Shown: piece after piece, positions 46,844-58,512 of the stretch
Layout of the letters: the number at the start of each line of letters is the position of its first letter
How positions within the stretch are numbered: the stretch's first letter is position 1
NCBI GenBank assembly: GCA_017984435.1
Contig: JAGNZK010000009.1
Span: forward strand, 1 to 64,000
Origin: Nitrosomonas sp.
GTDB taxonomy: Bacteria > Pseudomonadota > Gammaproteobacteria > Burkholderiales > Nitrosomonadaceae
DNA: 64,000 bases
Direction: 5' to 3'
Program-made: the position numbers and the translations under genes
The notes under the pieces: model-generated
What the model was told of the DNA's origin: nothing
Databases searched by the model: none
The model's input: only the letters and a program-made list of their open reading frames with translations

Positions 46844-48838
46844 GATCTGACAGTCACCCGGTTGCGAAGCCGGGCGCTACGAATGTTTGTAATGCGTTAT
46901 AACTAGCCATTTCAGTTTCAATCCTCGCCCGGCTTTGAGGCCGGGCGCTACCAGACGCCTGGGATAATTTTTACCAGCTATACGAGTTTCAATCCTCGCC
47001 CGGCTTTGAGGCCGGGCGCTACAGCAAGTACAGGTACGGTTACCAAGCGGAATTACGTGTTTCAATCCTCGCCCGGCTTTGAGGCCGGGCGCTACTGTTT
47101 ATTACCAACCAATAACCCACCTTTGGCGCGGTTTCAATCCTCGCCCGGCTTTGAGGCCGGGCGCTACAATGACTGTTTGCAGTTACCACACTCACCTGCG
47201 CGTTTCAATCCTCGCCCGGCTTTGAGGCCGGGCGCTACCCAATAAAAGCAGTCCCTGCACCGCCAGCAGCACTGTTTCAATCCTCGCCCGGCTTTGAGGC
47301 CGGGCGCTACGCCAAGAGGAGCACGATCAGTGTGATGGTTGCCCCATGTTTCAATCCTCGCCCGGCTTTGAGGCCGGGCGCTACCGCGTTTATGGCCGAT
47401 ACAAAACTACCCTGGAAAGTTTCAATCCTCGCCCGGCTTTGAGGCCGGGCGCTACCTAATACGCCAAAAAATACAAACGAAAATATGAAAAGTTTCAATC
47501 CTCGCCCGGCTTTGAGGCCGGGCGCTACCTTATTTATCATGAGTATATTACTACAGCCTGGGGTTTCAATCCTCGCCCGGCTTTGAGGCCGGGCGCTACC
47601 TTTTTTAATTGGACTATTTTTAGTTCTCGGACTCTGGTTTCAATCCTCGCCCGGCTTTGAGGCCGGGCGCTACGTAAAGTCTGTCTCAGTTTGTCCGGCT
47701 GCGTCGAGGTTTCAATCCTCGCCCGGCTTTGAGGCCGGGCGCTACTTACTTTATCGACGTCGGCCACAGCTAACTACCTGTTTCAATCCTCGCCCGGCTT
47801 TGAGGCCGGGCGCTACGGTATTTGGGTATACAACAATATTGGTGATTTGAGGTTTCAATCCTCGCCCGGCTTTGAGGCCGGGCGCTACGCCAAGAGGAGC
47901 ACGATCAGTGTGATGGTTGCCCCATGTTTCAATCCTCGCCCGGCTTTGAGGCCGGGCGCTACATCTGGAAAATCAAGGAGGAATGATGAGCCACATAAGA
48001 ACCAGTTTCAATCCTCGCCCGGCTTTGAGGCCGGGCGCTACATCTGTACTGGTGCATCATTGCCAGAGTTTTGGACGTTTCAATCCTCGCCCGGCTTTGA
48101 GGCCGGGCGCTACCTAATACGCCAAAAAATACAAACGAAAATATGAAAAGTTTCAATCCTCGCCCGGCTTTGAGGCCGGGCGCTACCTTATTTATCATGA
48201 GTATATTACTACAGCCTGGGGTTTCAATCCTCGCCCGGCTTTGAGGCCGGGCGCTACCTTTTTTAATTGGACTATTTTTAGTTCTCGGACTCTGGTTTCA
48301 ATCCTCGCCCGGCTTTGAGGCCGGGCGCTACGTAAAGTCTGTCTCAGTTTGTCCGGCTGCGTCGAGGTTTCAATCCTCGCCCGGCTTTGAGGCCGGGCGC
48401 TACCTAAAACATGATAAAGCGAAACCGTGCCAAAATGTGTTTCAATCCTCGCCCGGCTTTGAGGCCGGGCGCTACTTTACTTTATCAACGTCGGCCACAG
48501 CTAACTACCTGTTTCAATCCTCGCCCGGCTTTGAGGCCGGGCGCTACTTTCATGTATTGATAAGGTAACAGGTTTATACATCTGTTTCAATCCTCGCCCG
48601 GCTTTGAGGCCGGGCGCTACAATCATCCTTTTCTCATATTCTTGCCGAGAGTTACGTTTCAATCCTCGCCCGGCTTTGAGGCCGGGCGCTACCAGGCTAA
48701 AACTCCAAAAATAATAAATGTAGATGTGTTTCAATCCTCGCCCGGCTTTGAGGCCGGGCGCTACATTTGAACGCACGACAATCGCAGATACAAAAATCTT
48801 TGTTTCAATCCTCGCCCGGCTTTGAGGCCGGGCGCTAC
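46844..48838 (-). CRISPR. Type I-C CRISPR array, 27 canonical repeats plus a degenerate terminal one
   Basis: The 37-base repeat in transcript sense runs from gtagcgcccggcctcaaag to ggattgaaac, with a GC-rich stem (gcccggc/gccgggc) and the ATTGAAAC tail expected of type I-C. Canonical copies lie from 46915-46951 to 48802-48838 with no mismatch noticed. The distal copy at 46844-46880 keeps only one half, as is usual for the oldest repeat. There are 27 spacers of 34-37 bases, except one of 42 (47963-48004). Five spacers occur twice exactly and one twice with changes. Transcription and spacer addition should start from the leader at the high-coordinate end, next to cas2. Confidence 0.98.
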
Positions 48839-49018
48839 AGTACAACTGCAACCCGATCATACAACAAAGAAATTTTTTGTTCACGCGCGAACCGGTGGTT
48901 TGAGAGGTGATTTTTTGACGTGATTGTAAACATGTTTAATAAAATGCTATAAACATTCAAAATGTTATTCGTTCCGCGAACTAACCGGGATTTTACCTTT
49001 GCTTGTGGTTCGCGGGCA
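48839..49018 (-). promoter_or_regulatory. CRISPR leader
   Basis: 180 bases between the cas2 stop and the first repeat. They are AT-rich towards the array and contain ccgcgaac-type inverted motifs (gttcgcgg near 48973 and gaaccac near 49006, and a cgcgcgaaccggt near 48884) typical of type I-C leaders. The array promoter and the Cas1-Cas2 docking site should lie here. Confidence 0.8.
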
Positions 49019-49309
49019 TTAAACGATGAGCGATCCATCGAAATCGACGGCTTTGAATTTCCCATATTCTTTGATATGCAAATCGACGGGTTCTGTCAAA
49101 CGATACAATCGAAGATTGTCTTCTTTCTCGTCAATCTCAGCTAACAATCTGCGCTCAAGATCTTCGTACTGCATCAGATTGACTTTGCATTCAAAAACCG
49201 ATTTCTGCACGCGCTGCCCTGTACTTTCGCAAATTTTGGCGACACGCCGCAATCTTCTGCGGCCTTCCTTGGTTTCGGTTGATACATCATACGTTACGAT
49301 AATCAGCAT
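49019..49309 (-). CDS. cas2: CRISPR endonuclease Cas2 (type I-C)
   Basis: A 96-residue ferredoxin-fold protein that bridges two Cas1 dimers during spacer capture. It opens [20 protein letters not shown] with the conserved Asp at residue 8, followed by [13 protein letters not shown]. It begins two bases after cas1 ends and is the last cas gene before the leader. Confidence 0.97.
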
Positions 49310-49311
49310 GA

Positions 49312-50346
49312 TTATTTCACCAGAAAGGGAATATAGGCTTCCATGTCGCCACGGATGGTGCGCGCCATAAACCGCGCTTGCAGTTGCGGCAATAGCCCGA
49401 ACGGCACTTTAGTATCCAGCAACGGATGGTTTATTTCTTCCTGCTTGCGCTCCTGGTAAGCGGCTACGACAATTTTCCGCGCGTCACTCTCCAGATACAC
49501 CGCGCCGCCTTCGCGCATCTGCAAATTACGTTCGGTGATCTGCCCTCGATTAACGAGCGTGAGTGCCAGTCGATCCGCCAAAATAGACCGGAATTCTTCC
49601 ATCAAATCCAACGCCAGGGCTGCTCTGCCAGGTCGTACCGCATGCAGAAAACCCAATTGCGGATCAAGTCCGACGCTTTCAATGGCCGACCGGCAATCAT
49701 TCATCACCATAGAATAAAGAAATGATAATAACGCATTAAAGCGGTCGCGCGGCGGTCTACGGGTTCGACCGTCCATGGTGAAATGTTCGCGGATGTTGCG
49801 CCGAACCAGGTTGGGTAAAGCGGAGAAATACACTTTGGCCGCGTCGCCTTCAATGCCGCGCACGACATCCAAGTCTCCGGCTACCGCCAAATTGCGTATG
49901 GAACCGGCCAATGCGTCAGCCGCTTGACTGAGCATTTTCTGATCTTGCTCGTCCGTCGTTTCCCGCGCGCCGCGCAACAAAACTTGGCGGGAATTACGCA
50001 GCTTCCCGGCTATCGCCGCTTTTGCAATCGCAACGGCAAACGGCGCATCCGCAGCCAAGCGATGTTGCGCCTGGCGCAGCAAAATATTACCGCTGACCGC
50101 GCCTTCCAGCCTGGCTTTGAATCGCCCATTGCCATCGAGCAACACCAAGCCGATACCATCATCGGCGCAGCGATGCATCAGCGCCGGAGAGATCATGATG
50201 TTACCGAAGCAAACGAGCGTGCCCAAATGATGCAGCGGCACTTGGAGTTTTTTCTGCCGCTCCACATCGATGCGCACGGTATCGTTTTCCAAATGCGCGT
50301 AGGCATTCGGTGTCATGATGTAAAGTGTGTTGAGGATCTGATACAT
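49312..50346 (-). CDS. cas1: CRISPR integrase Cas1 (type I-C)
   Basis: Spacer integrase of 344 residues. The metal-site residues are visible as Glu in [12 protein letters not shown], His in [11 protein letters not shown] and acidic residues in [10 protein letters not shown]. The N-terminal beta domain holds the family phrase [16 protein letters not shown]. In a normal I-C operon cas1 abuts cas4; here 711 bases with a plus-strand toxin-antitoxin pair separate them, so cas1-cas2 may need their own promoter in the 48-base gap shared with the antitoxin gene. Confidence 0.97.
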
Positions 50347-50394
50347 TATGTATTACAATTTGTGAAATTTATCCAAGTTATCGGGAGTTACAAT

Positions 50395-50712
50395 ATGACG
50401 ACGCTCAACATCCGGCTGACCGAGCAGATTGAACAACGCCTTTCGGAAGAAGCCGAACGCGAAAATAAAACCCGTTCCGAAATCGCACGCGATGCATTGA
50501 ACTGGTATCTGTTGGAGATCGAGAAAAAACGCTTCATGGATCAACTCCTGGAAGAAGCCCGCGCAGCATACTCAAACGAAAGTATCCGGCAAGAAGCGCA
50601 GACCATTTCCGAAGCGTTTCTACCCATCGAAAACGAAATGCTGGAGAATGCCGAAGACCGTATATCCGGCGATTTGCCGCCAACCGGATCTTCCGGAAAA
50701 TGGTGGAAGTAA
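50395..50712 (+). CDS. Ribbon-helix-helix antitoxin of a MazEF-like pair
   Basis: A 105-residue protein with CGGGAG seven bases before the ATG at 50395. Residues 1-45 form an RHH DNA-binding domain (MTTLNIRLTEQIEQRLSEEA, then TRSEIARDALNWYL). The acidic C-terminal tail should wrap and neutralise the toxin. Its stop overlaps the toxin start by 13 bases, the usual antitoxin-first order. It runs against the cas genes and is divergent from cas1, so autorepression at the 48-base gap could also affect cas1-cas2 transcription. Confidence 0.88.
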   Translation: MTTLNIRLTEQIEQRLSEEAERENKTRSEIARDALNWYLLEIEKKRFMDQLLEEARAAYSNESIRQEAQTISEAFLPIENEMLENAEDRISGDLPPTGSSGKWWK

Positions 50713-51074
50713 TCCGCCGTGGCGAAATCTGGGTCGCCAATCTGAATCCACCGCGCGGGCAGGAAATCGGCAAAATCCGTCCGGTTTTGGTTTTTCAGGA
50801 CAATGCGCTGACCGCGATCGGAACGCCGATGATCATCATCCTGCCACTGACAACGCAAGTTTATCCCGCTTTCAAACAATGGCGCATCACCGTCACCGCC
50901 CGCCACCGCTTGTTGAAGGATTGCCAGATCATCGTGGATCAACCGCGAACCCTTGATCGTTCCCGGTTTGGAGAAGGACCGTTGGCCACCCTCAGCGATA
51001 GGGAGATGGAAGCTGTCGAGCGCGCATTCCTGGGCGTGTGCGGTATGCTTCATTACGTTATTCGTCCACGTTAA
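50700..51074 (+). CDS. MazF/PemK-family toxin
   Basis: A probable mRNA interferase of 124 residues. The fold signatures are RRGEIWVANLNPPRGQEIGK, IRPVLVFQDNAL with the Arg of the active site, and IIILPLTTQ with the Thr. Overlapped at its start by the antitoxin gene. Its 3' end overlaps the 3' end of cas4 on the opposite strand by 17 bases, so the module is wedged tightly between cas4 and cas1. Confidence 0.92.
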   Translation: MVEVIRRGEIWVANLNPPRGQEIGKIRPVLVFQDNALTAIGTPMIIILPLTTQVYPAFKQWRITVTARHRLLKDCQIIVDQPRTLDRSRFGEGPLATLSDREMEAVERAFLGVCGMLHYVIRPR

Positions 51075-51702
51075 ACAATTCATCCAGCAATTCATGCTGG
51101 TGTGTTTTATCCGCCAACGCGTGCGGCTGGCAAATTTCCTTCAGCGAACATTCCTTGCAACGTGCATCGTTAACCGGCGGCGGCAATTTCCCGGATACCA
51201 GCAAAGCGCGTATCGCCGCCACGATCTCCTCGACTTGCCGGCGCAACGCATCGGTAATGGCGACCTCCCGACGACGGCGGGAAGTGTGATGATAAATCGC
51301 ACCGTGCGTCACCGGCTTGCCGGTCATTTCTTCCAGACAGATCGCTTGCGCTGCCAGTTGGATATCGTCATGCGCTTTTGCACGTTTCTTACCGTGCTTG
51401 TACTCCACCGGATAAATCCGTCCATCCGGATAAAACTCGACGACATCGCATTTACCGATCAGCCCCAAGCGTTCCGACCAAACCGGCAATGCCTTTTCGC
51501 TGCGCACGCCTTCAAACGATTCAAAACCGGGTTCATCAACCCGTTGATGCGCGGCGTTGCCCCGCATGGTATGGACGTTTTCATCAAATGCCTGCTCGAC
51601 ATGAATCAACGCGCACTGACGCGGACAATAGCTGTAGTGCTGCAAAGCGGAGAGCATGATGGGGTCGTCGTTATCCAAGAGCTTCATGTGCAACGATAGC
51701 AT
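51058..51702 (-). CDS. cas4: CRISPR-associated exonuclease Cas4 (type I-C)
   Basis: RecB-like nuclease of 214 residues that trims prespacers to the correct PAM end. Iron-sulfur Cys residues are CPRQC near the start and CKECSLKEIC near the end. The nuclease core is GKCDVVEFYPDGRIYPVEYKHG, with the Asp and Glu-x-Lys acids. ATG codons at 51702 and 51687 are both possible; the first has AGG upstream. The start lies 32 bases inside the end of the HEPN-like gene, and its end overlaps the MazF-like gene. Confidence 0.95.
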   Translation of the reverse strand: MLSLHMKLLDNDDPIMLSALQHYSYCPRQCALIHVEQAFDENVHTMRGNAAHQRVDEPGFESFEGVRSEKALPVWSERLGLIGKCDVVEFYPDGRIYPVEYKHGKKRAKAHDDIQLAAQAICLEEMTGKPVTHGAIYHHTSRRRREVAITDALRRQVEEIVAAIRALLVSGKLPPPVNDARCKECSLKEICQPHALADKTHQHELLDELFNVDE

Positions 51703-51877
51703 GTTCGACCTGATGATGAATGCATAGCCATGCTTTCAATGCTTTTTCCACTGCTTGCTGGATATGAAATCTGAAAATCTCATCTGCAAAGAGTGGGTTA
51801 TCTTGCATACCGATCAGTGCATTGAGGTCCTTATGCGCCATGCGCAACATCGCGCGCGCCCGATCAAGGTCGGCCAT
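51671..51877 (-). CDS. HEPN-domain protein, short
   Basis: I start it at the ATG at 51877, preceded by GGGAAAG and overlapping the MNT gene by 14 bases; this gives 68 residues. DLDRARAMLRMAHKDLNALI and HIQQAVEKALKAWL are the first two helices of a HEPN domain. Family members run to about 110-140 residues and usually carry an Arg-x4-His RNase motif in the missing half, which I do not see. The frame ends where cas4 begins, so the gene looks truncated, perhaps by the rearrangement that placed it here. Confidence 0.72.
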   Translation of the reverse strand: MADLDRARAMLRMAHKDLNALIGMQDNPLFADEIFRFHIQQAVEKALKAWLCIHHQVEHAIVAHEALG

Positions 51878-52214
51878 GCAGCACTTTCCCTTCGCGAATC
51901 GCCCGGCCAATCACATGATTCGCTGAATTCTTCCATTGCTCGAATTCATCCCGGCTATAGAGCAAAATATCCTTGGATATATTCAACCCTTTTAACGCGA
52001 TATACAAACGCGCCGCTTCCTTCCTCCGGCTACGCTGCGGAGAAAATGGCGCTGTCTCGATAATCAGCAAATCGACATCGGAATCCGTCCGCGCATCACT
52101 CCGTGCCCGCGAACCAAACAGAATGATGGCCTCCGGAGAAACCTCGCGAACGATGGTATCAACCATCTGCTGCAATAAAATTTTTTCGTCAGTAGTTTCG
52201 ATTGAATAGGCCAT
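51864..52214 (-). CDS. MNT-type nucleotidyltransferase (MNT/HEPN module)
   Basis: A 116-residue minimal nucleotidyltransferase. The motif G-S-x10-D-x-D is present in ILFGSRARSDARTDSDVDLL. In studied MNT/HEPN pairs the MNT protein is the antitoxin and AMPylates the HEPN toxin. It is on the cas strand, between cas7c and cas4, and could be transcribed with them. A HicB-like fragment lies 75 bases upstream. Confidence 0.9.
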   Translation of the reverse strand: MAYSIETTDEKILLQQMVDTIVREVSPEAIILFGSRARSDARTDSDVDLLIIETAPFSPQRSRRKEAARLYIALKGLNISKDILLYSRDEFEQWKNSANHVIGRAIREGKVLHGRP

Positions 52215-52289
52215 TCAGATGTCCTTATGCTATTCAATAATTACTTTCTTACTGCATGAAGTAGCCGTGCTTTTCCCAGTGGCAACCTC

Positions 52290-52373
52290 TCATCGAAATG
52301 ACAATGCACGAACGGCGTAGCCACCTTCCGGCGCTTCTTCGACTAAAAAAATAATTTCATTGGTGTTTTTCAT
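52290..52373 (-). pseudogene. HicB-like fragment, 27 codons
   Basis: Begins MKNTNEIIFLVEEAPEGGYA and stops at VRALSFR. The pattern EI.FLVEE.PEGGY.ARAL is that of small HicB-type antitoxin proteins, which continue for another 40 or so residues; here a TGA ends the frame and no continuation is recognisable. It lies two bases after the cas7c stop. Probably the relic of a third toxin-antitoxin gene. Confidence 0.5.
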
Positions 52374-52375
52374 TG

Positions 52376-53533
52376 TTATGCCTTTCTCTCCAGAGTTACC
52401 CCTGACGGTAAACCGGCGTCATTGACATTAACCTGATAATCATCGAATGACCGTGGCACAGCTATGCCATCCTTGAGCCTCGGTTGAATACGTTCGAATA
52501 GACTGTAGGCAGGCGCATTGCCCAATTGACCATCATGCTTAAAAACATACAAACCGCGCGTGGCCATCTCTCCGCGAGCAGCGGAGCGATCATGCTCGAA
52601 CATATTTACCAACGATTGCCAAAGCAATTCCAGATCATCTTCGTTGAATCCGGTCTGATTGGCAAGATGCGCCGAAACGAAACCGTGTGCGACATAAAGG
52701 CCGTACGGCACAGTGAATTTGCGGCCCATCGTTCGATTGTCACCGCTTTGTTTTTCCGCCTCCGCTTCGGTTGCAACTGCCATGCGGGTGATGGAGTGTT
52801 CTTGCGCCACAATGGGATCGACAGAACGTGCAAAAGTGAGTTGAACCGGGCCGCGCACTTGACCGCAGTTAGGCGCGGATTTAAGCGACATCACGGCACC
52901 GAATGTACGGATGTCGAAATACTTCTGACACATCCAATCTCTGCCCTTGCTGACTTCTTCTGCTTTGGGTTTGCGTGGCTTGACTTCCTTTAGGCATGAA
53001 TTAAGGAAAGAAGTTATTTCTTTGGATAGCTTTGCTTCTTTTATCGCAGTCTTGATAGTTTTTACATCGGCATCGGCGGCCACAATAATGACGGACAAAG
53101 TCTCTTGATCGCCGTCTTGCGCTCGATATTCTTTCAGCTTGCCTGCTTCTAAGGCATGAGTAGTTTTGTCTTCATCAAACTCACCCATTTCCATCCCTTC
53201 CGGTAAAGGCAGATCATCAAACTCAGCTTGCAATTCTTTGGGTATCAATACGCGAGATTCTTTTCCCAACGAAATCCCAAGCTCTTCAAAAGCGATTGTG
53301 TGCGCTCTGCCAAGAACCGCTTTCTCCTTGACGTAAATGTCGAATGGACGTGCGCAATTTTTTGTGAGGCCAACGAAATTGCGCACCTTGCGCTTGATAC
53401 AGACATCAGTGACCAACCCCTTTCCGGTTTCTGCGTCCACACGCGGTAGATTGCCTGCGTCGGGATCGCCGTTTGGGTTGCCGTCTTTCACGTCGAAAAG
53501 CAGAACGAAGTCGTAACGATTATTCAGTGCCAT
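52376..53533 (-). CDS. cas7c: Cascade backbone protein Cas7 (Csd2), extended
   Basis: Type I-C backbone subunit that lines the crRNA, 385 residues against the 280-300 I expect for Csd2. The ends match the family well: [20 protein letters not shown] at the start, [11 protein letters not shown] from about residue 205, [35 protein letters not shown] and [17 protein letters not shown]. The extra material is between about residues 88 and 195, charged and partly helical ([16 protein letters not shown]), with no repeat or frameshift visible. It lies downstream of cas8c with a 32-base gap. Confidence 0.95.
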
Positions 53534-53565
53534 GATATTTATGCTCCCTTGTTGGTGGAATCGGA

Positions 53566-55248
53566 TTATTTTGTGAAAAAGGATTGCCGCTGGTGGTAAT
53601 AGCCGATGGCGAAGCGCCCTTGGTCGGGAAGGCTAAGCGTGGGTGGGAATCCGAGCGTGCCATCAAATCCGTCATTCATGATTGCACCGATGAGTTTTTC
53701 CTGATTCACCGCTTCGCCCTTATTGAGCTTGGCAATGTGGTGATTCTTCAGCTTGAGCAGTGTCGAAAAGACAGTGACAGGGGTAGCGGATGCAGCCCCA
53801 TAATAGCGATCGCGGATGGTTGCGTTGATGTTGGGGCTGGCTCGTTCTTGTATATGTTCCAGCACCGCAAACAATCTCCCTAGCCGATAGGCAGGGTTGG
53901 TGTTGTTTTCGTCGAGTGACACTTTGAGTTCCTCCTTTTCAGAGCTTCGATTGATGTATGCCTTGATGAGTGCGGCACGCGGATAGTTGATTTCCTGCTC
54001 TGCTCGGATACGGCGCACAGCAGCCTGTAGCAGTGTCGCAGGGTAGGGCGAACCGGAGAGGATCGCCCGCATGGTATCGCCCGCCAAGTTGGGCGGAATG
54101 TTCTCGGACTTACCTAACGATGCGGTATTCACCAATAGCCTGAACAACGAGAGATAGCGTTTTTCGTATCCGGGGCGGACGATTTCAAGCGCATCGAAAT
54201 GCTGGCGGATGCGGCCTGACAACTCCGCCACTGTGCCTACTTGCCAGAAACGGATACTGATGCGTGCCGCATTGGGTGCCAATCCCAGCACAAAAAAGCG
54301 CGTGGTGTCGTTATCTGTTGCAAAACCGCCTGTTTGCAAACTGCGATAAAGGCTTTCAACCGCTCGCGTGTTTCGATCGGGGTCATCTTTAGGCGACTCG
54401 GTGAAGATGTCTGAAAAGTTGTTTTCGAGATCATCCGGGGCTTCTGACCAAAAGACAGTTGAGGCATCGCCGACTTGCAAACGCTGCTTAGAATCTTTTC
54501 GCAACAGATGATTGATGGCTGTTGTGTAAGCAAAAGCGGCTGCATCACTAATGGGGGCATTTTCTCCTTGGCGTTGATCCTTGCCGTAAGATTCAAACGC
54601 TCGCAGATTAAAAGAAACAATGTCAGCACCTGTAGTATTGGCGTCCTTAACTCCCTTGATCGGTGGTTGCAATCGAATAGCCGGTGCTAATTCCCCTGTG
54701 ATGAGGCACACCATAGGTTTTCGGTTATCCACTTTCTCTAATTCTTCCATGAGTGTTTTTACCACCGTAGGACGTTGGCAGATAAGCTCCGTATTTCCGA
54801 TCAACCGAAATGCCAACCAAGGTTTAGTTTCAGAAATTTCTGCCCACTCGTATTTTGTGCCTGCTTTCACTGCTGGATTATCTGACAAGAAACTTTTCAT
54901 AGCGGAAAGGCCAACATCATCGAGTTCGAGATATTGGGCAAGCCTTGCTATGAAAGCCTTCTGTTTCGTCTCGCTTCCATCCAGGCCAAAAACATATTCA
55001 GCGTTATCCCAAAGCCGATAGGCTTTAACGCCACTTGTTCGTTTTTCGCCTTGAGGTACGAGAAATGACTTGGCCCGCTTCTTCTTGCCTGTAATCGTTC
55101 GGGTGTCTTCTATTTGTACAAGATTTCCCTTGTCATCCAGAACAATGATGAAAGGAATTTCTTTCCACTCGAACCCTTGTGGAGCAATCTCGCCATCAGG
55201 GTCTTGCGTCTTGCGGTCGTAGTAGCTTTTGAGTGCCTGTAAAATCAT
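53566..55248 (-). CDS. cas8c: Cascade large subunit Cas8c (Csd1)
   Basis: Large subunit of the type I-C surveillance complex, 560 residues, which recognises the PAM; an internal start usually also yields the small subunit Cas11c. Family text includes [10 protein letters not shown] at the N-terminus, [25 protein letters not shown]-like [16 protein letters not shown] and [20 protein letters not shown] near the C-terminus. The ATG overlaps the cas5c stop by four bases. Confidence 0.95.
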
Positions 55249-55949
55249 CCCCGCACCTCCTCGCTGTTCCAGTCAGGAATTTCGATTATCCCTTTCGTCA
55301 TCTGCGCATTAAAGAATCGGGGCATAGGGTCGGCAGGGTCGTTGTAATCCATGTCATAGAGCATCCAGCCGAGTCCGCGCGTTTCATCAATTGGTAAAGA
55401 TTCGTTAGCATTTTTTTCGACTAGGCGGAAATCGCAGGCAAACTCGCGACAGCCGAGATATGGCTGATTGATACACTGTCCTTTCCTGGCCCGCCGCTCG
55501 AACATATTGAGAAATTTCTCCGGTGTATTGGGTTGGCGATGAAGCGGTTCTTCTTCCACATCCTGCACGACATTGTCCAGATGCGGATAGCTTGGATGAT
55601 GGTCGCGTCCGGTCATTTCGAAATGGGCATATAGCCGGTATTTCACATCGCGCAAAAACAATCCGGCGCGTTGCTGGCGAAATTCTGGCTCATCTGCATA
55701 AATTCCATGATTGCTGACAGATGCCTTGCTGCCAACTTCGTTGCGTCGCACCGACACCCAGCATATCGGCGCCAGCACTTCGATCTTGGTCGGCACCCAG
55801 CGGATGGCCGGTTTCCACAGGATGGCCTCGAATAGGGCGCGCGCGGCGGATGGGGTGATGACATCGTAGCTGACCCGCTCGACTTTCATTTCCGGGCGGG
55901 TAAAACAAGCGAAGTCGCCAGCGACTTCCAGACAGTAGGTTCTTGGCAT
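55245..55949 (-). CDS. cas5c: crRNA-processing protein Cas5c (Cas5d)
   Basis: In type I-C this Cas5 replaces Cas6 and cuts the pre-crRNA. I start it at the ATG at 55949, 234 residues, because AAAGGGAG lies just before it; the longer frame to 55976 has no such site. Conserved parts are CLEVAGDFACFTRPEMKVER, VSYDVITPSAARALFEAIL, and FLRDVKYRLYAHFEM. It lies 23 bases after cas3. Confidence 0.95.
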   Translation of the reverse strand: MPRTYCLEVAGDFACFTRPEMKVERVSYDVITPSAARALFEAILWKPAIRWVPTKIEVLAPICWVSVRRNEVGSKASVSNHGIYADEPEFRQQRAGLFLRDVKYRLYAHFEMTGRDHHPSYPHLDNVVQDVEEEPLHRQPNTPEKFLNMFERRARKGQCINQPYLGCREFACDFRLVEKNANESLPIDETRGLGWMLYDMDYNDPADPMPRFFNAQMTKGIIEIPDWNSEEVRG

Positions 55950-55972
55950 AAATCTCCCTTTCGTTTCAGTCT

Positions 55973-58222
55973 TCAAACCAGCAAGCTTGCCGGGTCGATA
56001 GCTACCGTATCTGCGAGCAGCAATCCGATTTGTGGATGATATAACGTGTCGCCGACTTGCGCATACATACCCGGCTGGAATTCCTCGATATCACCATCAG
56101 CAAGCAAACGATTCAAGTCATGACGATAGAGGGTAACACTGTACCGCTGGAGCTTACGCATCAACCAACGTTCAGGTCCTTTGCTACACAGCATATTGAG
56201 CAAGGCTTTGCCCTCTCTGTTATAGCCCACAAACACGGCTTGAGTTTCGCTATCATCAATCAGCCTAAATTTCTCCGCCGCGCTACGAAACTGCACTTCC
56301 AGACCGGCACCTACTTCGAGTAAATCTCCAATGCCGTGTTCATCCAAATTGGGTTTGCTCAGAAATAGGTCGAAATAACGGGCAAACTGTTTCCTTTCCA
56401 GCGGATTTTTTGGGTGGTTATGCCAGACATCTTTAGTAGCATCCTCGCCAAAGCGCAATAACCCCTTCGGTGCTGGCTTGGGAGGTACAAACACAATCAC
56501 CTTACCTTTTTCCAGTTTTCCTTCACGGTTGCAGCGCCCGGCTGCTTGTGCGATGGAATCAAGTCCCGCCAGCGCACGATAGATCACTGGAAAATCCAAG
56601 TCCACTCCTGCTTCGACCAGTTGAGTGCTCACGACACGTAGGGGCTTGTTTTTCTTCAAGCGCCATTTGATATAACGAATGATCCTTGACCGATGCTGCC
56701 CACACATCAATCCAGACAAATGTATCGTGCCGCGAGGCATTCTTTGCCAGAGCTCGCGGCAATCGTTGCGGGTATTGACAATAGCAAGCACTGCATCATG
56801 CTTGCAAAGTTCTTTCGCTAAATCATCCCAACTGGTGGGTTGATTCAGGTCGGAGGGCAGTTCGACTTTCACTCGATCCAGTACAGTGTAAAGCGCATCT
56901 ACATCCGCGATAATTTCGCGTACATTATCCAGGCCCCGACGTACCGTCCGGCCAAAGCTATCCTTGGTAGTATTTAATGCTGGCTGTGTAGCAGTAGAAA
57001 GTACAAAGGTTACGCGATAATGGGTGGCCAGCAAATTGAGCACATCCAGAATCGGTTGCAGAAATTCGGGTGGCAGCAATTGCGCTTCATCCAACACTAC
57101 GATGCTATCCACAAGATTATGCAGCTTACGGCATCGAGAAGTTTTAGATGAAAACAGTGATTCAAACAACTGAACATTGGTAGTAACAATCAACGGAGCA
57201 TCCCAGTTCTCAGTTGCAAGACGACTCTTTGCCGTCTCCTTCTTAGTTTCCAGATTGCTGTGATGTTCGATAATTGTATCTGGGTATTCCTTAAAAATAT
57301 CGCGAAAAATATCCGCAGTTTGCTCAATAATGCTGGTATAGGGTATGGCGTATATGATGCGCCGTTTTCCATGATATCGAGCATGTTCGAGAGCAAAAGC
57401 CAAGCTGGATAGCGTCTTACCACCACCCGTTGGAACCGTCAGCGAAAAAATACCGGGAGGCAACGCTGCACGTATACGGCACTGCAGCAATACATCAGCT
57501 CGAATAGAATTAACCAGTGTTGGTTTTGCCGATGATGTTTTTCCACTCATGTAACGGTCAAATACAGGCAGCATTTGCATTAACGTTCTCTCGATTCTTC
57601 GCGCATCTGATTTGTCTTTATCCATGAATTCTTCAGTGTCAAGAAAGTCAGCATCCACTAGGCAAGAAAACAACATTCTCAACCACAAGGCAAAACCGTT
57701 TCTGTCGCCCAAGACTGGTGATGATGGTTTTTCTTGCTCCAACAAATCGGACGGTATTTTTTGTGCTAGAACCCGACTCAGCAGAGCCGGTTGTCCAAGC
57801 CTTACTGACAGGGCTTTTCCACCACTTTCGGATGAATACCAGTCAGGCAACCCAGCATGATGCCCTGCAATCAGGTAGGCCAAAATACGGCCATGCTTAT
57901 CGAAACTGTTTATTGCATGAATAGCTCCGGCTGTGGAGTGATCCACTCTTCCTGGAGCCCCTTCAATATGGGCCTCAGCATCGTAACCACTGGCCTTTTT
58001 GATGTATTCCTGAAATTCGGCACTATACTTGCCTAAATCGTGCCAAAGACCGGCTATCTTTGCCCAATCTGCGCTACAAAATTTTTGTGCCATCTCTCCT
58101 GCACGTTTAGATACTTTAATTAAGTGCTCATCCAGCGCATGTTCTCTCCATTCACCATCCGGATCTTGGCGAACATGCGCAAGCACAATTTTCGTTTCCT
58201 TCTGTTGATTTATACTTTCCAT
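55973..58222 (-). CDS. cas3: CRISPR helicase-nuclease Cas3 (type I-C)
   Basis: Target-shredding enzyme of 749 residues. The N-terminal HD nuclease shows GLWHDLGKYSAEFQEYI, with His61-Asp62. The SF2 helicase shows VPTGGGKTLSSLAFALEHAR near residue 265, DEAQLLPPEFLQP, STATQPAL and AAGRCNREGKL. All active sites look intact, so interference should be possible. It is the first gene of the cas operon; GGAAGTGAG precedes its ATG, and the promoter should lie in the 90 bases between it and the HIRAN pseudogene. Confidence 0.97.
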   Translation of the reverse strand: MESINQQKETKIVLAHVRQDPDGEWREHALDEHLIKVSKRAGEMAQKFCSADWAKIAGLWHDLGKYSAEFQEYIKKASGYDAEAHIEGAPGRVDHSTAGAIHAINSFDKHGRILAYLIAGHHAGLPDWYSSESGGKALSVRLGQPALLSRVLAQKIPSDLLEQEKPSSPVLGDRNGFALWLRMLFSCLVDADFLDTEEFMDKDKSDARRIERTLMQMLPVFDRYMSGKTSSAKPTLVNSIRADVLLQCRIRAALPPGIFSLTVPTGGGKTLSSLAFALEHARYHGKRRIIYAIPYTSIIEQTADIFRDIFKEYPDTIIEHHSNLETKKETAKSRLATENWDAPLIVTTNVQLFESLFSSKTSRCRKLHNLVDSIVVLDEAQLLPPEFLQPILDVLNLLATHYRVTFVLSTATQPALNTTKDSFGRTVRRGLDNVREIIADVDALYTVLDRVKVELPSDLNQPTSWDDLAKELCKHDAVLAIVNTRNDCRELWQRMPRGTIHLSGLMCGQHRSRIIRYIKWRLKKNKPLRVVSTQLVEAGVDLDFPVIYRALAGLDSIAQAAGRCNREGKLEKGKVIVFVPPKPAPKGLLRFGEDATKDVWHNHPKNPLERKQFARYFDLFLSKPNLDEHGIGDLLEVGAGLEVQFRSAAEKFRLIDDSETQAVFVGYNREGKALLNMLCSKGPERWLMRKLQRYSVTLYRHDLNRLLADGDIEEFQPGMYAQVGDTLYHPQIGLLLADTVAIDPASLLV

Positions 58223-58311
58223 CTCACTTCCATCTCAATCCGCTCCCACGGATTATTACTTTTTTTCAACCCTACGATCAAAGATGACTATTTCTCTTAT
58301 CGATCTAGTAG

Positions 58312-58512
58312 TTACGAGATGGTGGTATTGTTTCTTGCGGGTATATAGCCGAGTTTTCCACCTTGCCAGTCGATGCGGACGGTGTGTTGGTCGAAGCGGC
58401 TAATGGGTTCTCGTATTAGGGTAATGGATTGGCTGATGGTGAGTCGCGGTCAGAGGGTTTCGCCGCGGTGATATTGGAATCCTATGCGGGGGAGATTTGC
58501 AGGGTTCTCCAT
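58312..58512 (-). pseudogene. HIRAN-domain protein pseudogene
   Basis: From an ATG at 58512, 20 codons (MENPANLPRIGFQYHRGETL) run to a TGA at 58450-58452, after which the frame continues without a further stop to 58312: PRLTISQSITLIREP, then RIDWQGGKLGYIP. These are consecutive parts of a HIRAN domain, so the TGA most simply replaces a TGG (Trp) codon. HIRAN domains bind DNA 3' ends in repair helicases and also occur as small stand-alone proteins. It lies 90 bases upstream of cas3 on the same strand. Confidence 0.7.

Follow-up and report, generated by a model that had tools for sequence, protein, structure and literature searches.

An antisense RHH-MazF toxin-antitoxin pair between cas4 and cas1 in type I-C CRISPR loci of Nitrosomonas and related bacteria, with a putative antitoxin operator beside the cas1 start codon

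We analysed 64,000 nucleotides of a Nitrosomonas sp. contig (JAGNZK010000009.1, positions 1 to 64,000; hereafter the window), which carries on its minus strand a complete type I-C CRISPR locus in the order cas3-cas5-cas8c-cas7-cas4-cas1-cas2, and found between cas4 and cas1 a toxin-antitoxin (TA) gene pair, an RHH antitoxin and a PemK/MazF toxin, running antisense to the cas genes. The pair recurs at this place in type I-C loci of several families with the same orientation and a constant spacing from cas1, it is under purifying selection and linked to cas1, and a motif, TGTATTACA, is conserved beside the cas1 start codon. Perhaps the autoregulatory site of the TA pair has merged with the start of cas1, so that the state of the pair is coupled to cas1-cas2, a reading to which we give a little less than an even chance. 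It was absent from the original prediction for this DNA, which proposed that TA genes at cas gene borders make loss of the adaptation genes costly, and it fits the data better than such guarding. The features that carry the argument are these:

50395-50712, plus strand (antisense to the cas operon): RHH antitoxin; Pfam RHH_1, 21.4 bits against a cut-off of 20.5
50700-51074, plus strand: PemK/MazF toxin; PF02452 (PemK_toxin), E 4e-23, and solved MazF relatives
50349-50357, plus strand: TGTATTACA, operator-like motif lying upstream of both genes, 2 nt from the start codon of cas1 and 37 nt from that of RHH
50330-50359, plus strand: candidate RHH promoter, -35 TTGAGG at 50330-50335 (inside cas1), -10 TACAAT at 50354-50359
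49312-50346, minus strand: cas1 (type I-C), start codon 50346-50344; TIGR03640, E 5e-151
51058-51702, minus strand: cas4; TIGR00372, E 5e-40

RHH comes first and overlaps PemK by 13 nt, both genes belong to known families, and both are under purifying selection, as is found in type II TA gene pairs. Median pairwise dN/dS was 0.092 for RHH (37 of 55 pairs usable) and 0.085 for MazF (55 of 55); for cas1 it was 0.045 (31 of 55) and for the MNT gene described further below 0.11 (35 of 36). The nearest solved relatives of the toxin are MazF structures, and EndoAI is a weak match to RHH (E 0.03). Between the starts of RHH and cas1 there are 48 nt, and at the other end of the pair the toxin gene overlaps the 3' end of cas4 with its own. 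Neutral decay was rejected by dN/dS for RHH, MazF and MNT, and accepted for the HEPN and HicB pieces of the window. A plasmid or phage TA was also rejected, since MazF has no plasmid relative at E<=1e-15 among 72,556 plasmid records and the 7 phage records that matched all have <60% identity.

The arrangement is repeated within the genus. Of the 86 genus genomes 25 have cas4, among them that of the window, and we compared 25 stretches from the other 24 (comparison loci carry L numbers below). The interval between cas4 and cas1 exceeds 200 nt in 10 of 24 measurable loci and is 11-60 nt in the remaining 14; nine of the ten large insertions are RHH-MazF, every one antisense, and the tenth (L037) holds MNT and HEPN pieces. 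Intact genus MazF genes at least 86% identical number 11, nine of them at cas4-cas1 and the other two on cas1 remains. Some MazF match exists in 46 of the 86 genomes, mostly at <=40% identity and at other places. The original prediction had allowed that an arrangement seen once only would be better explained by random insertion; the cas4-TA-cas1 order was looked for in related genomes and repeats there, so that explanation did not apply. A recent single insertion is likewise rejected by this recurrence and by the MazF tree.

With cas genes on both sides, the pair is found antisense between cas4 and cas1 in nine Nitrosomonas and five other genomes, the latter from Nitrosomonadaceae (L121/L074), Gallionellales (L084), Proteobacteria LL3.bin11 (L085/L145), Ferrovum (L087) and another family of the order (L126/L153). 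Outside Nitrosomonas, identity to the window falls to 41-47% for RHH and is 54-72% for MazF. The distance from RHH to cas1 is 47-49 nt in 15 of 15 rows, that is 14 genomes, with L126/L153 counted twice and without L036, whose RHH faces the remnant of a cas1. Several genomes stand under more than one label (L085/L145/L125, L083/L170/L124, L074/L121, L126/L153, L056/L079, L050/L078). Among the Nitrosomonas carriers is a cultured strain, N. nitrosa Nm90 (L078), in which a contig end splits cas4.

Scanning genome contigs with the MazF alignment gave 49 loci. Ten are at the cas4-cas1 border of type I-C (the contig of L083 stops short of cas1), and five (L079, L081, L082, L086, L092) sit on I-C loci that are partly in ruins. 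Eight are at or close to type I-G genes, L099 showing nothing but a WYL regulator; in the flanks of the other 26, tblastn with I-C and I-G queries only matched no gene of either type. All 18 I-C rows of the MazF tree, some of them from partly ruined loci, fall into one set with two ruins and L092, at a support of 90/97, just below the star of the tree tool. This grouping suggests that RHH-MazF entered type I-C once, long ago. In type I-G loci L095, L111, L113 and L114 the pair stands antisense at the junction of csb2 with the cas4/cas1 fusion (L127 was dropped as a copy of L113, and the L100 stretch ends before csb2); it is near cas3g in L098, and divergent beside a WYL-domain regulator in L106, with TGTATTACA upstream of RHH in both L098 and L106. 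MazF rows at the I-G fusion cluster no more than shuffled labels do, and the starred branches force at least 3 changes, so that repeated recruitment of RHH-MazF to type I-G is likely on the tree.

The second line of evidence comes from the short region before cas1. Loci lacking the TA pair join cas4 to cas1 by a link of 2-20 nt (8 in L032). Where the pair is present, this link gives way to a conserved block close to AATTGTAATACAnA ahead of the cas1 ATG; its core, read towards RHH, is TGTATTACA, separated from the start codon by 2-3 nt. Of 17 TA-bearing I-C upstreams, 13 have the exact motif and 16 have it when one mismatch is allowed, and the best site lies 44-47 nt before RHH in all 17. Upstream of cas1 in TA-less loci, 60 nt searched with one mismatch allowed, it occurs in 0 of 37. 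Among 20 non-CRISPR relatives, 13 carry the exact motif as well, at varying positions and in varying orientations (L092, L093, L110, L117, L119 and L128 were left out of this set). Antitoxins autoregulate, and because the motif accompanies RHH outside CRISPR loci it is best read as a putative autoregulatory operator of RHH.

The TA pair seems to go along with cas1-cas2 while cas4 and the effectors are exchanged. For the 9 Nitrosomonas loci, distances of RHH and of MazF correlate with those of cas1 (r 0.73 and 0.59) and not with those of cas4 (r -0.12 and 0.07), and over all 14 loci the correlations with cas1 are 0.83 and 0.77. Locus L046 compared with the window shows the same pattern, cas4 being 74% identical and RHH, MazF and cas1 90-97%.

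From these results we suggest the following model. The RHH-PemK pair, predicted from its sequence to be a working type II module, would have entered the cas4-cas1 border of a type I-C ancestor, probably in a single ancient event, and would since have travelled with cas1-cas2; its entry would have swapped the short cas4-cas1 link for a TA promoter-operator that today lies directly against the cas1 start codon. Either by itself or together with PemK, RHH would bind TGTATTACA and repress its own promoter, and at the same site would govern both initiation at cas1 and the passage of RNA polymerase into it. While the cell rests, cas1-cas2 would be kept down together with the TA genes; infection or stress would deplete the antitoxin, the toxin would slow RNA metabolism and cas1-cas2 would be released, and spacer acquisition would then fall in a phase when both cell and phage are stalled. 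From their antisense place within the cas transcript, as in a noncontiguous operon, the TA genes might add mutual interference between cas and TA transcription. Binding of RHH (with MazF) at TGTATTACA and control of cas1 transcription are what we infer from the motif and its place. The wider claim, that adaptation genes have been drawn into the regulon of a protein TA system, with one operator serving the toxin operon and cas1-cas2, established in type I-C across several families and arrived at anew in type I-G, is possible and more tentative than the coupling.

Several observations weigh against this coupling. RHH-MazF is dispensable, since 14 of 24 Nitrosomonas loci have no insertion above 200 nt at cas4-cas1. 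The motif is exact in just 3 of 8 type I-G loci. It was picked by eye from the same upstreams, so that the shuffle figures (mean 0.12 exact) overstate the test and the TA-less loci are the cleaner contrast; the motif counts are also not independent, because the I-C loci are related and the motif was chosen after the data had been viewed. A promoter scan gave no more sites than shuffles, none facing cas1, so that transcription from cas4 may simply run on into cas1. Across the full set of 14 loci, RHH and MazF distances correlate with cas4 too (r 0.58 and 0.55). Array size shows no evident effect of the TA pair, at 27-72 repeats in 7 TA-bearing loci with this repeat and 1-79 in 8 without TA, in stretches that may cut arrays. 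TGTATTACA may be kept merely for the needs of RHH itself, with cas1 a bystander, and the constant spacing may be the inertia of one clade.

The strongest rival we consider doubtful yet credible: the border between effector and adaptation genes is the place that best tolerates insertions and module swaps, recombination frequently brings in TA genes, and intact TA pairs persist there because loss of the antitoxin is toxic, with no service to CRISPR. Insertions do cluster at both the cas7-cas4 and cas4-cas1 borders, where six TA families stand together with non-TA genes (reverse transcriptase, Nmad2, PIN_12); differing effector modules lie beside near-identical adaptation genes; and of the seven ruined loci that lost cas genes, five keep the TA pair intact. 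Yet a permissive border alone does not predict one RHH-MazF lineage with constant site, orientation and spacing across families, nor the same antisense design in type I-G, and the plasmid search shows that this MazF is not a common roaming TA there. Toxins could instead serve as a back-up, halting growth once CRISPR defence has failed or been blocked, as the original prediction also entertained. RNase-type toxin families embedded in a defence operon are in keeping with this, HicA of L032, which overlaps the listed cas4 frame by 4 nt, may be co-translated with cas4, and a coupling of immunity and suicide has been put forward as a general hypothesis in the available text of PMC3506569. Against it, no sensor or Cas-toxin link is visible and toxins are often missing at cas7-cas4, and we regard a back-up role as improbable.

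Guarding of the adaptation genes, as by CreTA, is in our estimation very improbable, even with a TA pair embedded in the operon and linked to cas1. In L056, L081 and L082 the RHH and MazF frames are open and only about the first 35-41 nt of cas1 are left, the stretch where the RHH -35 would lie, and in L055 the TA frames are open beside cas1 pieces reaching to residue 122; these lengths were judged by eye on few loci, and some breaks may be assembly errors. Cas loss was therefore survived in these four loci, which had lost cas1 or most cas genes, contrary to a guard that makes such loss costly. The fifth ruin with intact TA, L086, keeps cas1-cas2 and has cas4 reduced to a C-terminal stump, and ruins with intact TA retain the candidate RHH promoter stretch; in L057 (about 21 nt of cas1 left) and L092 (about 6 nt) RHH and MazF are both frame-broken. 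The ruins thus resemble deletions made by nature, and we count this pattern in favour of the coupling. The antitoxin, for its part, is a protein of its own that shows no apparent dependence on Cas. Ectopic repeats of the CreTA kind were not found in 48900-58400, where the best candidate had 21 of 37 matches against a shuffle mean of 20.7 and maximum of 25, a test that strongly degenerate repeats could escape, and CreTA was rejected on this ground. In L086, the cas1 beside the TA pair has an in-frame stop near codon 67.

The original prediction that TA genes sit at cas gene borders by more than chance holds up when all borders are compared. Insertions above 200 nt were counted at cas3-cas5 in 2 of 21 loci, cas5-cas8 in 0 of 21, cas8-cas7 in 0 of 25, cas7-cas4 in 34 of 62, cas4-cas1 in 24 of 61 and cas1-cas2 in 0 of 61, using estimated gene ends and with two genomes entered twice (L085=L145, L083=L170). 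Within the genus, cas7-cas4 exceeds 200 nt in 18 of 23 measurable loci, 17 of these 18 with TA-family genes (in L036 and L042 a HicB-like gene alone); DUF433/DUF5615 we take to be a TA pair. In the order, Cas8c was found in 41 of 399 genomes, and among 36 loci outside the genus cas7-cas4 exceeds 200 nt in 21 of 34 measurable, all with an open reading frame of a TA-family cluster (in L170 HicB-like only), and cas4-cas1 in 10 of 33, two of them with RHH-MazF. The phylum sample had Cas8c in 30 of 398 genomes; 28 loci were taken and 22 were measurable, with insertions at cas7-cas4 in 4 of 22 and at cas4-cas1 in 1 of 22. All four cas7-cas4 insertions there contain Unstab_antitox genes on the sense strand, adjoined by ParE (Pfam) in two, with a weak ParE in L199 and none named in L174. 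The habit of TA insertion is thus strong in this order and rarer beyond it. G282, at a contig edge, was dropped from the order sample and G751:C37 and G620:C207 from the phylum sample, with G000 and G255, counted already; the stretches of L155, L157 and the phylum loci L175, L181, L185, L190, L192 and L195 had no cas4 match and were likewise dropped before counting.

Other fillers of cas4-cas1 were seen in other genera: a reverse transcriptase (L166), Nmad2 domain proteins (L164/L165), a PIN_12 protein (L150), a 126-aa protein that is aspartyl-protease-like by eye (L159) and an unnamed 585-aa protein (L171). The loci L030, L031, L033, L035, L037 and L040 have similar cas4-cas1-cas2 genes (cas4 81-95%) and very different effectors (cas3 about 33-35% identical), Cas8 of L037 still matching the I-C family, and divergent I-C effectors seem to have been swapped upstream of one adaptation module. 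In L036 (2682-3304) a copy of about 23 codons of the cas1 start lies by RHH, and after it come MNT, pieces of HEPN and a second cas1, this one complete, an arrangement that is a visible step of module exchange. In L039 (5807-6980) cas2 is in two pieces about 0.9 kb apart.

The remaining features of the window are as follows:

51864-52214, minus strand: minimal nucleotidyltransferase (MNT), antitoxin-type; PF01909 (NTP_transf_2) and PF18765 above cut-off, the MntA model below its cut-off
51671-51910, minus strand: HEPN remnant, C-terminal half gone; PF05168 positions 2-47 of 117, under cut-off
52238-52373, minus strand: HicB-like relic, out of frame; reading frames of the same family at this place in relatives, family name provisional
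52376-53533, minus strand: cas7c; TIGR02589, E 5e-116
53566-55248, minus strand: cas8c; Pfam/NCBIfam, type I-C
55245-55976, minus strand: cas5c; Pfam/NCBIfam
55973-58222, minus strand: cas3; Pfam/NCBIfam
49019-49309, minus strand: cas2; TIGR01573, E 7e-19
46854-48838, minus strand: CRISPR array, 27 repeats of 37 nt and one degenerate terminal repeat

All seven cas genes are named by Pfam/NCBIfam models, cas1, cas7 and cas8 specifically as type I-C, and the set of cas genes is complete, in line with the original prediction. The array has internal duplications at 47274-48547, where the 300-nt block 47419-47718 is an exact copy of 48077-48376 and single repeat-spacer units occur repeatedly.

That the operon is split by two TA modules stands for the complete RHH/PemK pair and not for the genes between cas7 and cas4, so that the window has one full module. 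Of the predicted MNT/HEPN pair with a HicB-like relic, MNT is intact and the HicB-like piece is indeed a relic, with about 24 codons before the frame is lost with a stop; HEPN is truncated. Alignment with intact relatives at the same site gives HEPN 142-156 aa, longer forms are present in L030, L031 and L033, and the C-terminal half of HEPN is catalytically important; the window therefore lacks the full-length HEPN beside MNT of a type VII (MNT-HEPN) TA. The HicB name has no Pfam or NCBIfam match and rests on pairing with HicA in relatives. These genes share the orientation of the cas genes. The toxin is lost and the antitoxin kept in the window, in L036 and in L046-L048; complete HicBA or MNT-HEPN pairs are found in other loci, and HicB-like or MNT genes lacking a toxin are frequent alongside them. 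The cas7-cas4 genes look like turnover, more changeable guests of the same permissive border. Genus MNT genes at least 72% identical number 11, nine at cas loci and two elsewhere. MNT genes of the cas7-cas4 type with HEPN pieces stand in L058 (7463-8052) and L059 (7480-7879) with no I-C cas gene matched nearby, and the HicB-like relic also accompanies MNT of L058.

When native type I-C systems acquire spacers is, to our knowledge, largely an open question. A conserved TA operator at the cas1 start predicts that the state of the TA pair gates cas1-cas2. If this is true, loss of the antitoxin would at once slow the cell and turn on spacer acquisition, and a switch for cell alarm may govern immune memory too.

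Sporadic TA genes near cas loci are known and have been listed since 2006 (PMC1462988): Table 3 of Makarova 2006 has HicB, COG2442 and PIN near cas genes, a loose association for which the consulted part of that paper gives no fixed border and no shared operator. In C. difficile, type I TA genes lie beside CRISPR arrays, according to the consulted text of PMC6079278. Our literature search, which covered titles and the beginnings of abstracts in part, found neither the cas4-RHH/MazF-cas1 arrangement nor an antitoxin operator at cas1. CreTA is alike in being a TA inside a cas operon between cas genes, and the creTA region carries a strong promoter for downstream cas genes in the available text of PMC9458426, a precedent for the coupling suggested here. 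It differs in that here both parts are proteins, no ectopic repeats were found in 48900-58400, Cascade is not visibly the antitoxin, and the TA pair persists in ruins without cas genes. The noncontiguous operon ith-1/tha-1 of an S. aureus phage, as described in the accessible part of PMC11087260, likewise has an antisense gene under a promoter of its own, set within an operon to which a defence gene belongs; it is a phage lysogeny switch with measured transcripts, whereas the cas locus is known from sequence alone.

The mazEF/pemIK systems with an RHH antitoxin, of the EndoAI/EndoA type, have the same gene order, with RHH upstream of and overlapping PemK/MazF. The pair described here differs from them in its fixed antisense place in cas operons and in the operator-like site that stands against the cas1 start codon.

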